A DNA stretch of 64,000 bases from positions 1-64,000 of the forward strand of contig CASEPN010000004.1 in NCBI GenBank assembly GCA_949289845.1. The letters run 5' to 3'. A program made the position numbers and the translations under genes. The notes beneath the pieces were generated by a model. The model was not told the DNA's origin. It did not search any database and was given only the letters and a program-made list of their open reading frames with translations. Below are positions 36,809-64,000 of the stretch, piece after piece. The DNA is from an uncultured Bacillota bacterium. Its GTDB lineage: Bacteria > Bacillota_I > Bacilli_A > RFN20 > CAG-826. Position 1 is the first letter of the stretch. The number at the start of each line of letters is the position of its first letter.

Positions 36809-36885
36809 GCGCCCGTAGCTCAGCTGGACAGAGCACTTCCCTCCTAAGGAAGGGGTCAGGCGTTCGAATCGCCTCGGGCGCGCCA
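36809..36885 (+). tRNA. tRNA-Arg (anticodon CCT)
   Basis: Acceptor GCGCCCG/CGGGCGC, anticodon loop CTCCTAA, T loop TTCGAAT, encoded CCA. It reads AGG, a codon that is common in the genes of this window. Confidence 0.96.
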
Positions 36886-42455: not shown

Positions 42456-42532
42456 GCGCCCGTAGCTCAGATGGATAGAGTGCAACCCTCCGAAGGTTGA
42501 GGTCAGGCGTTCGACTCGCCTCGGGCGCGCCA
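42456..42532 (+). tRNA. tRNA-Arg (anticodon CCG)
   Basis: Acceptor GCGCCCG/CGGGCGC, anticodon arm CAACC-CTCCGAA-GGTTG and encoded CCA. It reads CGG. Confidence 0.95.
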
Positions 42533-59695: not shown

Positions 59696-61300
59696 ATGGC
59701 AACCAAGTACGTGTTCGTAACGGGAGGCGTGGTCTCCTCCCTTGGGAAGGGCATCTTCGCCTCTTCCCTCGGCCTTCTCCTGAAGTCGGGCGGGCTCCGG
59801 ATATCGATGATGAAGCTCGACCCCTACCTGAACATCGACCCCGGGACAATGTCTCCTTACCAGCATGGGGAGGTCTACGTGACGGAGGACGGGGCCGAGA
59901 CGGACCTCGACCTTGGCCACTACGAGAGGTGGATCGACGAGAACCTCACCAAGGAAAGCTCCCTTACCTCGGGGAAGGTGTACATGTCCGTCATGGACAA
60001 GGAGAGGCGCGGGGACTACCTCGGGGCCTGCATCCAGGTCATCCCGCACGTGACCGACGAGATTAAGATGAGGATCCGCGAGGCGGCGAGGGTCCAGAAG
60101 GCGGACGTCATCATCTGCGAGATCGGTGGGACGGTGGGGGACATCGAGTCCCTTCCCTTCCTCGAGGCGATCCGCGAGATGAGACTCGAGGAAGGCTTCG
60201 GCTCCACCCTCTTCGTCCATAACACCCTCGTCCCGTATCTTCGCTCAGCGGAGGAGACGAAGACGAAGCCGACCCAGCACTCGGTGAAGGAACTCCTGTC
60301 GCTTGGCATCCAGCCCGACGCGATCGTCCTTAGGACCGAGGTGCCTCTCACGGATTCCCAGCTGAAGAAGATTTCCCTCTTCTGCAACGTTCCTCCCGAG
60401 GGGGTGTTCACCGCGCTCGACGAGAAGGTCGTCTACGACCTCCCTGTCCACCTCCATGAGCAAGGGCTCGAGTCCTATGTCCTTAGGAGGCTTGGCCTCG
60501 AGGAGAGGGAGAGCGACCTCTCCTCCTGGAAGAAGTGGGTCGACTCCTTCAAGGAGAGGAAGGGCAAGGTGAGGATTGCCCTCGTCGGGAAGTACGTCGA
60601 ATTGAAGGACGCCTATCTTTCGGTGAAGAGCGCCCTCGTCCACGCCGGGACGAGGCTTGGCCGGAATATTGAGATCGACTGGATCAAATCCTCCTCCCTG
60701 ACCGAGGAGAACTGCGCTTCCCTTCTTGGAGAGGCCGACGGGATCCTCGTCCCCGGAGGCTTCGGGGAGCGGGGGAGCGAGGGGAAGAAGCTCGCGATCC
60801 GCTATGCCCGGGAAAACGGGGTCCCCTTCCTTGGGATCTGCTTCGGGATGCAGCTCGCCATCATCGAGTTCGCCCAGCATGTCCTCGGATGGGAGGATGC
60901 CGACTCCGCGGAGTTCGATCCCCACTGCGCCCGCCCTGTCATTGACCTTCTCCGCGGGCAATACGACGGCATCGAGCTCGGGGGCACGATGCGCCTTGGG
61001 AACTATCCCTGCCTTACGAAGGAAGGGTCCCTCGCCCGGAAGCTATACGGGCAGGAAAGGATCGAGGAGCGGCACCGCCACCGCTACGAGTTCAACTCCC
61101 GCTACAGGGAGGACTTCGAGAGGGCCGGGCTTTCCTTCTCCGGGATCAATCCGGACTCCGGCCTCGTCGAGATCATCGAGCTTCCCGGCCATCCCTATTT
61201 CGTCGCCTCGCAGTTCCATCCCGAGTTCACCTCGCGCCCCCTCCGCCCCAACCCCCTCTTCCTGGGCTTCGTCGAGGCGGCGATGAAGAGAAGTGAATGA
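59696..61300 (+). CDS. pyrG: CTP synthase
   Basis: PyrG aminates UTP to CTP using glutamine. The 534-residue protein has the synthetase domain (TKYVFVTGGVVSSLGKGI, KLDPYLNIDPGTMSPYQHG, CEIGGTVGDIESLPFLEAIR) and a C-terminal class I glutamine amidotransferase with LVPGGFGERG, the nucleophile FLGICFGMQLA and FVASQFHPEF. A TATCCT ends 9 nt before the ATG and no Shine-Dalgarno is seen. It overlaps the lipid kinase gene by 4 nt (ATGA). Confidence 0.96.
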   Translation: MATKYVFVTGGVVSSLGKGIFASSLGLLLKSGGLRISMMKLDPYLNIDPGTMSPYQHGEVYVTEDGAETDLDLGHYERWIDENLTKESSLTSGKVYMSVMDKERRGDYLGACIQVIPHVTDEIKMRIREAARVQKADVIICEIGGTVGDIESLPFLEAIREMRLEEGFGSTLFVHNTLVPYLRSAEETKTKPTQHSVKELLSLGIQPDAIVLRTEVPLTDSQLKKISLFCNVPPEGVFTALDEKVVYDLPVHLHEQGLESYVLRRLGLEERESDLSSWKKWVDSFKERKGKVRIALVGKYVELKDAYLSVKSALVHAGTRLGRNIEIDWIKSSSLTEENCASLLGEADGILVPGGFGERGSEGKKLAIRYARENGVPFLGICFGMQLAIIEFAQHVLGWEDADSAEFDPHCARPVIDLLRGQYDGIELGGTMRLGNYPCLTKEGSLARKLYGQERIEERHRHRYEFNSRYREDFERAGLSFSGINPDSGLVEIIELPGHPYFVASQFHPEFTSRPLRPNPLFLGFVEAAMKRSE

Positions 61301-62166
61301 TCCTCTTCCTTCACGGAGCGCTCGCCCGGAGGGACAAAGGCATTCTCCCGCGGAGTATCCGTTCCTTTCTCATGAAGGAAGGGCTTCCCTTCAAGGAGCT
61401 TTCCGCATTGGACCGGGAAGACTATTTCAAAGAAGTTGGCTCCCTGGTGAAAGGGGACACGCTCCTCGCCCTTGGGGGAGACGGCACCCTTTCCCTTGTC
61501 GCGGACGCCCTCATGGGCATGCCTGAGGAAGAGCGTCCCGCCTTCCTCCTCATTCCCGGGGGCACCCTCGGGGACGGGGCGAGGAACATTTGGGGAAGGA
61601 AGTCCCTTCCCCGGCTCCTTTCCTCCCTCAAGGACGGCAGGAGGAAGAAGATCGACGTCCTCAGGGCGGAGCTGGAGGACGGCCCATCCGTGCATTTCCT
61701 CTACATGATCTCCGCGGGGGCTTTTTCTAGAGTGGCCTCGCGGGCCTCGAGGAGGAGCAAGGCTCTATTTGGGCGACTTACATATCTTGCCCACGCCTTC
61801 TTCGAAGCGGTTTTCTCCCGAAAGGAGATAGAGGTCTCCCTTCTCCTCGATGGCGGGAAGGTGGCAAAGGAACGACTTTCCTTCCTCCTCGTGCTGAACG
61901 GGAGGAGGATCGCGGGCCTTCCTCTTCGCAGATACGGCCCGATCGACGACGGGAAGGCCGAGGTGAGGCTAGGAAGGGGGAAGGGGCTTGGGTCCGCTCT
62001 GAGAACACTTGCTTCGCTTCCTGGAGATATCCACAAAACCCCATCTCTTTTGGCGGATTTTTCCCAAATGGTCGAGATTTGCATAGATGGAGAGCCTTAT
62101 CGCTCCACCTCCCTGCGGATCGAGGTTTTGCGCAAGGCTCTCGAAATCCTTATTCCTAGCGAGTAA
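61297..62166 (+). CDS. Diacylglycerol/lipid kinase-type (DagK_cat) protein
   Basis: A 289-residue protein with the lipid-kinase/NAD-kinase type nucleotide loop LLALGGDGTLSLVADALMG near 60-78 and LLIPGGTLGDGARNIW (family: PxGTxNDFAR). The rest matches the beta-sandwich C-terminal domain of YegS/DgkB proteins, with IDDGKAEVRL and a C-terminal VEICIDGEP. The typical GTGNDFAR reads GTLGDGAR, so substrate and activity may differ. It overlaps pyrG by ATGA, so the two are co-expressed. It may feed phosphatidic acid to CdsA. Confidence 0.82.
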   Translation: MILFLHGALARRDKGILPRSIRSFLMKEGLPFKELSALDREDYFKEVGSLVKGDTLLALGGDGTLSLVADALMGMPEEERPAFLLIPGGTLGDGARNIWGRKSLPRLLSSLKDGRRKKIDVLRAELEDGPSVHFLYMISAGAFSRVASRASRRSKALFGRLTYLAHAFFEAVFSRKEIEVSLLLDGGKVAKERLSFLLVLNGRRIAGLPLRRYGPIDDGKAEVRLGRGKGLGSALRTLASLPGDIHKTPSLLADFSQMVEICIDGEPYRSTSLRIEVLRKALEILIPSE

Positions 62167-62227
62167 AGCGCCCCGCCTTTGCGAGGATTTTCTTTAAGAA
62201 ACCCCTTTCAGCATTCAGGCCATTGGC

Positions 62228-62268
62228 TATAATCCATCCATACATATTTGGGAAAAGGAGACCCGAAC
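62228..62268 (+). promoter_or_regulatory. promoter and Shine-Dalgarno of the terminal membrane-protein gene
   Basis: TATAAT at 62228-62233, then AAAAGGAG at 62253-62260, 8 nt before ATG 62269. Confidence 0.65.
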
Positions 62269-64000
62269 ATGAAGAAAAGCGCTGTCGTTCTCTCCATCCT
62301 GGCATTCGTATTCACGGTGCTGGGCATCGTCCTCATCGGACTGACCCCGATGATTTCCGCGACGAACTGGCTTCCGACGACCGGTTTCGTCGACACCGCC
62401 CAGGCGTTCATCGACGCTTTCTTCACGAGCACCGCGCCCTACGCGAAGGCCTGGAGCCTCATGCTCGAGGGGAACATCTACTGCGTGCTAGCCTTCGCGG
62501 CCGTCTGCGTGTTCCTCGTCCTCTGGCTCGTGCACTTCATCGTGCTCCTTGCCAGGAGGCGCTACCGCTCCCTCTTCCCGAACCTCATGTGGCTCATCTT
62601 CGGCGGCATCACGACCGGCTTCTGCTGCATGGCCCTCGTCCCCGGGATGCTTCCCCTGAACGAGGCGACCGCCGCCCTCAGCACCAACCTCAACGGCGTC
62701 AACGTCTTCCGTTTCCTCTTCCTCGGGCAGGGCGAGACCGCTGCCTTCGTCAATAGCGGCGATAACCCCGCGCTCGCCTGGGTCCTTGCGATCGTGATGG
62801 CGCTCCCGGCCGCCCTCGTCTCCCTCGCCTGGCTCTTCGGCATCATCTCCGTCATCTGCGGGATCGGCGACTGCATCGCCAACCCCGGCGCCAAGCGCGA
62901 CAGGAGCAAGGCCGCCGAGCGCGCCAAGGCCCGCGCCCTTTCCGACGCCCGCCTCCCGGTGGACGACGAGGACGCTCTCAAGGCGGCGATGTACGACGAG
63001 CTCGACCCGAGCCCCAAGGCCGTCCCTGCTCCTGCCGAGAAGAAGAGCGACATCCCTGTGATCGTCCAGCACATCTACTACAACGGCCAGCCGGTCTCCG
63101 AGACCAGGACCGAGCCGAAGCCCGAGCCCAAGCCCGAGCCCAAGCCCGAGCCTGCCCCCGCCCCTGAGGTGAAGGAGCAGGAGAAGGAAATCCACATCCA
63201 CATCTATAACCCCGCGCCCGAGGCGAAGAAGGAGGAGCCGAAGCCCGAGCCCAAGCCAGAGCCTCTCCCCGAGCCCAAGCCCGCGCCCGCTCCCGTCGAG
63301 GAGGAGCGCCCGCTCACCGCTCGCGAGCTCCGCGCCATCATCAAGGAAGCGCTGGACGACCACGACCATCCCGATAACGACCGCCCGCTCACCGACGAGG
63401 ACGCCAGGCAGCTGGTCCGCGAGGAGCTGAGCGAGTACTACGATAGGGAGCTTCCCGACTTCGAGGATGACTACATCGACGAGGAGGACGAGGGGCTCCT
63501 CACCATCGACGAGCTCCGCGACGTTATCCATGACGAGATCGCCGAGGCCCTCGCGGGGCTGAAGCCCGCCGAGGAGACCCCTGCTCCTGAAGAGCCCGCC
63601 GAGGAGCCCGCGAAGGAGGAGGCAGCCCCTGCGGTCAGCAAGGACGACATCAAGGCCATCGTCCAGGAGGAGATTGCCGCGCTCGTCCGTTCCCTCGACG
63701 AGAAGGAAGCCGCCCGCAAGAGCGAGGAGGACGCCAAGGCCGAGGAAGCCAAGAAGGCTGAGGAAGCCGAGGCAGAGGCCGCCAAGGCTGAGGCCATGAA
63801 GAAGGCCGAGGAAGAGGAGGCCCTTCGCGCCAAGAAGGAAGAGGAGGAGCGCGCCGCCCGCGAGGAGGCCGCCGCCCTCCAGGCCGAGGTCGATAACGCC
63901 CAGAACGAGGCCATCCGCGCCCTCCAGGACTCCCTCCTGAAGGCCGAGGACATCCGCGAGATCCTCAAGGAAGAGCTGGCGAAGCTCCCGCGCCCCGAGC
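62269..64000 (+). CDS. large repeat-rich membrane protein (5' part, cut by window end)
   Basis: The first 577 codons of a longer protein. It has four membrane segments (about 5-27, 67-90, 103-122, 165-200), then a long hydrophilic region. Two Pro-Lys-Glu stretches follow, KPEPKPEPKPEP near 285 and a second near 325, each preceded by a HIYYN or HIYN segment. Then come at least five short helix repeats of the form (L/V)Tx(D/E)E(L/I)Rxx(I/L/V)xxE(E/A)(I/L). An Ala/Glu/Lys coiled coil (about 480-540) separates repeats four and five. No family is recognised. The layout suggests a cytoplasmic scaffold anchored at the membrane. The end is outside the window. Confidence 0.8.
   Translation, partial: MKKSAVVLSILAFVFTVLGIVLIGLTPMISATNWLPTTGFVDTAQAFIDAFFTSTAPYAKAWSLMLEGNIYCVLAFAAVCVFLVLWLVHFIVLLARRRYRSLFPNLMWLIFGGITTGFCCMALVPGMLPLNEATAALSTNLNGVNVFRFLFLGQGETAAFVNSGDNPALAWVLAIVMALPAALVSLAWLFGIISVICGIGDCIANPGAKRDRSKAAERAKARALSDARLPVDDEDALKAAMYDELDPSPKAVPAPAEKKSDIPVIVQHIYYNGQPVSETRTEPKPEPKPEPKPEPAPAPEVKEQEKEIHIHIYNPAPEAKKEEPKPEPKPEPLPEPKPAPAPVEEERPLTARELRAIIKEALDDHDHPDNDRPLTDEDARQLVREELSEYYDRELPDFEDDYIDEEDEGLLTIDELRDVIHDEIAEALAGLKPAEETPAPEEPAEEPAKEEAAPAVSKDDIKAIVQEEIAALVRSLDEKEAARKSEEDAKAEEAKKAEEAEAEAAKAEAMKKAEEEEALRAKKEEEERAAREEAAALQAEVDNAQNEAIRALQDSLLKAEDIREILKEELAKLPRPE
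63112..63297 (+). repeat. KPEP-type Pro/Glu/Lys repeat tracts
   Basis: Tandem AAGCCCGAGCCC-type units encode KPEPKPEPKPEP (63118-63152) and a second degenerate tract KPEPKPEPLPEPKPAP (63241-63288). Such linkers are extended and stiff, and the DNA repeats can change in copy number. Confidence 0.85.
63310..63990 (+). repeat. five-copy amphipathic helix repeat in the terminal protein
   Basis: Copies begin at 63310 (PLTARELRAIIKEAL), 63385 (PLTDEDARQLVREEL), 63496 (LLTIDELRDVIHDEI), 63631 (AVSKDDIKAIVQEEI) and 63934 (LLKAEDIREILKEEL). Spacing varies, so copies were probably spread by duplication with diverging linkers. Confidence 0.7.

Follow-up and report, generated by a model that had tools for sequence, protein, structure and literature searches.

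Gene structure and orthologs

The window analysed here comprises 64,000 bases and corresponds to positions 1-64000 of contig C4 (64086 bases) of an uncultured Bacillota genome. Its last part carries the 5' end of a gene whose product is referred to below as the 4-TM protein, after its four predicted membrane helices. The features of this region are as follows.

61297..62166, + strand: upstream neighbour, diacylglycerol-kinase-like (PF00781; Pfam match)
62269..64000, + strand: 5' part of the gene (ATG at 62269; no stop within the window)
62278..62358, + strand: membrane helix 1, residues 4-30, N-terminus inside (mapped from the AF2 model of ortholog P0002; loop charges)
62476..62553, + strand: membrane helix 2, residues 70-95 (mapped from the ortholog AF2 model; loop charges)
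62563..62637, + strand: membrane helix 3, residues 99-123, preceded by a basic loop in the cytosol (same basis)
62767..62880, + strand: membrane helix 4, residues 167-204, leading into a basic stretch (same basis)
63055..63087, + strand: PVIVQHIYYNG, an instance of the conserved motif P-x-[ILV]-[VI]-Q-[YHN]-[IF]
63187..63213, + strand: EIHIHIYNP, a second, lineage-restricted strand-like segment
63313..63372, + strand: repeat 1 (LTARELRAIIKEALDDHDHP), an amphipathic helix with an N-cap (strict pattern and unit profile; profile match 63310-63366)
63388..63441, + strand: repeat 2 (LTDEDARQLVREELSEYY), 25 residues past repeat 1 (strict pattern and unit profile; profile match 63385-63441)
63499..63552, + strand: repeat 3 (strict pattern and unit profile; profile match 63499-63549)
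63634..63687, + strand: repeat 4, which begins the long helix (strict pattern, unit profile and ortholog AF2 model; profile match 63637-63684)
63637..63933, + strand: Ala/Glu/Lys-rich long helix, a coiled coil or single alpha-helix (mapped from the ortholog model)
63940..63987, + strand: repeat 5 (KAEDIREILKEELAKL) (unit profile, match 63943-63987; missed by the strict pattern)

The initial annotation had placed an unrecognised protein at 62269-64000. The open reading frame is real, but the assembly truncates the gene: no stop codon is reached by position 64086, the contig end, and the conserved C-terminal domain (CTD) lies outside the window. A profile search located the sole CTD copy of the source genome at 727321-727761 on the minus strand of contig C1, 33 bases from the end of that contig (727794 bases). 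Since this copy sits at the end of C1 and the frame is still open at the end of C4, the gene is most likely split between two contig ends, inside a Pro/Glu-rich stretch.

The complete ortholog in genome G018 has 780 residues, and its N-terminal part is 98% identical to the window protein; complete orthologs in the genus range from 519 to 913 residues. An artefact or a wrong frame was rejected because of this identity and because the gene is retained across the genus. The N-terminal 257 residues match 20 of 41 genomes; every one of these belongs to the same genus, represented by 25 genomes, and there is no match in the 16 other genomes of the order. A scan of contigs with the N-terminal part returned three loci only. 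Eighteen complete orthologs and one truncated ortholog were aligned, and four columns are invariant in these 19 sequences. No Pfam or NCBIfam model matches the protein above its cut-off, the only matches being far below, in agreement with the earlier impression that no known family has this layout; the portions of the literature covered by our search hold no recognised description of the 4-TM protein or of the CTD. A sigma-70-like promoter was not found at 62050-62400, although this is a weak test.

The source order is probably one in which AGG and CGG have been reassigned in some members; for the order RFN20, the part of PMC8629427 that was consulted gives reassignment of AGG to Met (family CAG-288) and of CGG to Trp. 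An alternative code for AGG was rejected here, since the commonest residue in relatives at AGG positions is Arg in gltX, pyrG and the gene itself, and Met is not within the eight commonest residues shown at these positions. The window holds tRNA genes with the anticodons CCT (AGG codon; 36809-36885) and CCG (CGG codon; 42456-42532).

Membrane anchor and topology

The four membrane segments proposed in the initial annotation were borne out by the AF2 model of the ortholog, by hydropathy and by loop charges. With helix ends set by ourselves, the loops assigned to the inside contain 2, 4 and 11 Lys and Arg residues and those assigned to the outside contain 1 and 1. The protein is thus predicted to have four membrane helices with both the N- and the C-terminus inside; owing to the basic stretch after helix 4, the remainder of the protein is predicted to be cytosolic.

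The cytosolic arm

The region between residue 216 and the CTD, which we call the arm, is net negative in 38 of 38 proteins (median -36.5) and has a median Pro content of 13% in the same 38 arms, and Pro-rich linkers, as anticipated, are present. In the full-length AF2 model of the ortholog (overall pTM 0.38), Pro-rich parts of the arm such as residues 246-345 have pLDDT values below 50.

After the membrane helices comes the motif P-x-[ILV]-[VI]-Q-[YHN]-[IF]. Of the 76 CTD proteins examined, 33 contain it, and every one of these belongs to f1, the family of the source genome; the Gln of the motif occupies one of the four invariant columns of the alignment. The window protein does contain the pair of HIYYN/HIYN-KPEP modules that had been described as duplicated, but a repeated module is not a family-wide feature, as the second copy is present in only 3 of 19 aligned orthologs in addition to the window protein. 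The duplication is confined to the nearest relatives, and of the two motifs the first alone is old. The motif region has pLDDT values below 50 in the full-length model, and packing of the strand motif on the CTD in cis is accordingly unsupported.

The helix units of the arm take the form [LIM]-[TS]-x-x-[EDQ]-[LIV]-R-x-[IL]-[IV]-x-[ED]-E-[LIV]; one position left free by the pattern is Glu or Asp in 61 of the 68 distinct units that the pattern picks. The strict pattern occurs four times in the arm of the window protein, whereas 300 shuffles yield 0.00 on average. With a profile built from 45 repeat units, the source genome shows five matches and no more at E<=1, all within the gene at 62269, which agrees with the earlier count of at least five copies. 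The intervening Ala/Glu coiled coil was also recovered, as the Ala/Glu/Lys-rich segment at 63637-63933: in the ortholog model it is a single helix of about 98 residues (457-554; pLDDT mostly about 80-94) that begins at repeat 4 and stops ahead of repeat 5.

In 17 of 23 genus orthologs the distance between repeats 1 and 2 is exactly 25 residues; the pair as defined by the pattern is missing from the other six. Among the 17 proteins fitting both patterns, the identity of the same copy across species is 0.69, compared with 0.41 between copies 1 and 2 within a protein. The fixed spacing and the higher same-copy identity point to an old, position-specific pair accompanied by further units, and these identities make recent slippage of the repeat unlikely. 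The common function does not depend on the repeats, since the pair is lacking in 6 of 23 orthologs and 9 of the 36 proteins tested are devoid of a strict repeat. An alternative view is that the arm is low-complexity sequence that evolves fast and has hardly any role of its own, what matters being the anchor and the CTD; arm length is highly variable, and strict repeats number from 0 to 6 per protein. We consider this very unlikely, however, in view of the fixed 25-residue pair, its position-specific conservation and the invariant motif Gln.

The repeat corresponds to no described domain among Pfam and NCBIfam models, the best match to the PDB has an E value of 0.46, and the pattern survives alignment. 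The initial annotation had also proposed looking for the repeat in other proteins, including partners, and this gave largely negative results. Apart from the 4-TM gene, nothing in the source genome reaches E<=1, and in other genomes repeat units outside the orthologs are weak single units with E values of just 0.05-0.9. The repeat is present in 3 of 3417 other open reading frames of the fetched loci, one of which is a truncated ortholog and one apparently a truncated paralog. A 543-residue frame in three related genomes carries one weak match to the repeat profile (E about 0.05; G003:C7:10929-10970, G001:C22:5855-5896 and G006:C20:15535-15576).

A helix N-capping box and a hydrophobic staple have been described for motif II of glutathione transferases (GST) in the part of PMC4429112 consulted. 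By our own assignment, the repeat start [LIM]-[TS]-x-x-[EDQ]-[LIV] fits both motifs; the difference is that here the capping start recurs along an extended arm, each time on a short helix of its own.

The C-terminal domain

The CTD, of about 145 residues, is the best conserved part of the protein, with 45 invariant columns in 18 sequences. Its AF2 model has a pLDDT of 87.5 and a pTM of 0.81, and the full-length ortholog model shows the same helices and CTD. A Foldseek search of the PDB with this model gave no match at E<=0.001, the best being YjbR at E 0.016. VIA-align 2 gave Z scores of 8.3 (3h9x), 8.0 (9t2w, YdhG-like), 7.7 (2fki and 2a1v), 7.2 (2oc6), 6.9 (5jlt, the MotA C-terminal domain) and 6.0 (4hs5), with frataxins at about Z 6; these alignments cover 91-105 residues. 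The model therefore resembles MmcQ/YjbR (PF04237), YdhG/DUF1801, frataxin/CyaY and the C-terminal domain of T4 MotA in its overall alpha-beta fold. Z scores of this size make a shared arrangement likely but do not establish kinship.

There are differences from these families. The first concerns MmcQ/YjbR and YdhG/DUF1801: the CTD does not match their Pfam models and sits as the tail of a membrane protein. When 49 CTDs were compared singly with Pfam at E<=10, there were only scattered single hits (best E 0.0065), and PF04237 and PF08818 were absent from the 17 families matched, a search whose sensitivity is limited by the HMMER filters. By sequence, nothing beyond chance was found among PDB chains, and a PDB profile search was empty. 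The second difference is one of charge. Frataxin/CyaY proteins have a conserved acidic iron-binding ridge, whereas 49 of 49 CTD cores carry a net positive charge (median +9) and D42 is the only column that is acidic in at least 80% of the divergent set; R9, K25, R36, K59, K96 and K98 are basic in 84% or more. On the evidence of these sequence searches, the CTD appears to be a previously unnamed domain that has neither a Pfam nor an NCBIfam model.

Distribution of the C-terminal domain

Of 37 genus genomes, 36 contain a match to the CTD profile, and in 34 it is of ortholog grade (191 bits or more). Two further genomes, G003 and G024, have distant copies only, the ortholog of G003 being cut by a contig end, and G004 has no CTD at all. 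Matches occur in 44 of 247 genomes of a class sample and 68 of 392 of a phylum sample, two samples that overlap, and fall in families f1, f3, f8, f16, f23, f26 and f27. In the phylum sample, f1 accounts for 42 genomes with a CTD against six listed misses.

With membrane segments called by our own hydropathy cut-off, 72 of 76 complete CTD proteins have a predicted segment, and in 71 of the 76 all segments lie upstream of the first CTD. The exceptions are four proteins without a segment, among them L133, which combines the CTD with a starch-binding domain, and one with a segment downstream of its CTDs. SipW-like signal peptidases of families f1 and f3 (L117, L119, L121, L123 and L125) have a tail with one to three CTDs beyond their final membrane segment; L121 matches an NCBIfam model at E 6e-15, below its cut-off, the other four were named by eye, and L117 and L123 have no Pfam peptidase match. 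The CTD is also present in two EAL proteins (L132 by Pfam, L141 by eye) and in large surface proteins with Listeria-Bacteroides repeats (L149 and L162), Big_11 and DUF1542 (L139) or collagen repeats (L163). The Gln motif was not found in the SipW-like, EAL and surface CTD proteins.

Some CTD proteins, including large surface proteins, end in a region like ribosomal L15/L18e. This C-terminus scores above the Pfam cut-off in 5 of 19 scanned CTD proteins (L130:5115-6476, L134:6057-7505, L148:6278-8722, L149:374-6073 and L162:153-5051), and a match below the cut-off is present in L124, L137 and L131.

These companions, together with the modelled fold and the basic core, bear on the possibility that the CTD is a nucleic-acid-binding domain and that the protein ties the nucleoid, or ribosomes and RNA, to the membrane. 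The structural resemblance to MmcQ/YjbR (2fki) and the MotA C-terminal domain (5jlt) is in its favour, and a 'double-wing' mode of DNA binding has been proposed for these in the part of PMC7641849 consulted. However, Z scores near 7-8 may reflect a common arrangement only, as frataxins and secretion chaperones appear in the same list; a basic charge equally fits lipid or acidic-peptide binding; and the 4-TM protein and its close orthologs lack the L15-like domain. In this form, we regard the proposal as tentative and rather doubtful.

A mobile origin of the CTD was also considered. A tblastn search of phages with a CTD of the type found in the 4-TM protein and one of plasmids with the CTD of L148 gave no match, and neither a phage nor a plasmid origin is supported.

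Genomic neighbourhood

A protein of the diacylglycerol-kinase-like cluster is encoded directly upstream in 24 of 38 loci. Downstream, 19 of 25 genus genomes encode a T2SSE-like ATPase in the same orientation, at a distance of 3.3-8.2 kb from the CTD. In G001, G006 and G021 the ATPase gene falls on a different contig, and the distance is non-comparable in G003 (no ATPase match), G024 (no ortholog-grade CTD) and G004 (neither). The downstream cluster (L028:11592-15084 and equivalents) consists of the ATPase, a membrane protein and small proteins without a Pfam match. Its content suggests a machine that is either Tad-like or an unusual T2SS, here in bacteria that lack wall genes.

The 4-TM protein could then be an accessory factor for the assembly or positioning of this machine. 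Apart from the downstream ATPase gene, related neighbours in other genera of the family are consistent with such a role, as is G004, which has neither a CTD nor an ATPase above the cut-off. Nevertheless, a guanylate-kinase-like gene in the opposite orientation intervenes in several loci, so that the CTD gene and the ATPase do not form one operon, and the evidence for an ATPase link comes from loci of the 4-TM gene and does not extend to the many other CTD proteins. Furthermore, the f2 genomes G025, G032 and G037 have an ATPase above the cut-off and no match to the N-terminal part, and G025 also lacks a CTD. The protein matches none of the Pfam and NCBIfam models for Tad/T2SS subunits above the cut-off. 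We consider such an accessory role unlikely.

Cell-wall genes and comparison with mycoplasmas

The transpeptidase (PF00905) and Mur ligase (PF01225) families are absent from all 25 genus genomes, whereas 7 of the 16 other genomes of the order, identical for the two families, contain both; within the source family, PF00905 occurs in 4 of 66 genomes. The cells of the genus, which are gut bacteria, thus appear to have no wall, as far as gene content indicates. FtsZ-like genes are found in 31 of 37 genus genomes.

In the mycoplasma terminal organelle, HMW1-3 and P65 have an acidic Pro-rich and long helical composition. TopJ, another protein of this organelle, has an acidic Pro-rich region according to the part of PMC12325244 consulted. 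The 4-TM protein shares with these proteins a wall-less host and the presence of acidic Pro-rich and long helical segments, its orthologs having uniformly acidic, Pro-rich arms. It differs from them in its four membrane helices and its CTD, and the likeness does not extend to any demonstrated shared domain. The genomes compared here are all metagenome-derived.

By analogy, the protein might belong to a cortical skeleton that replaces functions of the wall, as do the cytoskeletal proteins of the mycoplasma attachment organelle. The loss of both wall families across the genus would fit, but the mycoplasma resemblance is compositional only and FtsZ-like genes persist. In families f2 and f5 of the same order, 6 of 6 genomes are without either wall family, yet the N-terminal part of the protein has no match in any of them, and no f2 or f5 genome is within the CTD matches of the class and phylum samples (of these genomes, only G025 is listed as searched). 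Conversely, G431 of the source family has retained transpeptidases and has CTDs. Wall loss alone is therefore not explanatory, and we regard a skeletal role as distinctly improbable.

Proposed role

Our preferred explanation, which we hold to be slightly better than an even chance, is that the protein is a cytosolic membrane tether or scaffold whose basic tip docks an anionic partner. Its four predicted membrane helices would anchor it with both ends in the cytosol, and the acidic Pro-rich arm would act as an extended multivalent stalk that holds the CTD off the membrane. Docking could take place at the capped helices and at the motif with the invariant Gln, although this motif could be a folding element instead. 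The basic CTD may bind a nucleic acid, a ribonucleoprotein (RNP) or an acidic protein arm, and the partner would be gathered at the membrane of an apparently wall-less cell. Other membrane and surface proteins of Bacilli appear to carry the same domain on cytosolic tails. The anchor, topology, arm, repeats and CTD with its charge rest on sequence and prediction, and it is from these that we infer docking, partner and purpose. Thus, of the multivalent cytoplasmic scaffold suggested in the initial annotation, a membrane protein with a cytosolic multi-helix arm is upheld by the AF2 model and the loop charges, but 'scaffold' is an interpretation of that architecture.

Among specific versions of the tether, the MotA/YjbR-like fold and the L15-like companions make a nucleic-acid or RNP partner the most attractive; the basic charge of the CTD alone would fit other anionic partners as well.

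A broader and more speculative extension, to which we give only about one chance in four, is that the CTD is a hitherto undescribed, general 'tail adaptor' of Bacilli, whose basic surface links membrane and surface proteins, through their cytosolic tails, to one shared anionic partner. Inner anchoring would then replace wall or sortase attachment in a family without wall genes, and the 4-TM protein would be a housekeeping hub. To our knowledge, the membrane organisation and surface-protein retention of wall-less bacteria are known mainly from a few mycoplasmas. The CTD occurs in most sampled genomes of the family and is common to the tails of surface proteins, signal peptidases and EAL proteins; it may therefore offer a handle on a possible common inner partner.

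The SipW-like peptidases, EAL proteins and surface proteins of related Bacilli resemble the 4-TM protein in having the CTD on a tail past the membrane segments. They differ from it in their other N-terminal functions and in a CTD that is more divergent and sometimes tandem. Two CTD paralogs lie in tandem in genus g21 of the source family (L114:4721-9163 and L115:4293-8698).
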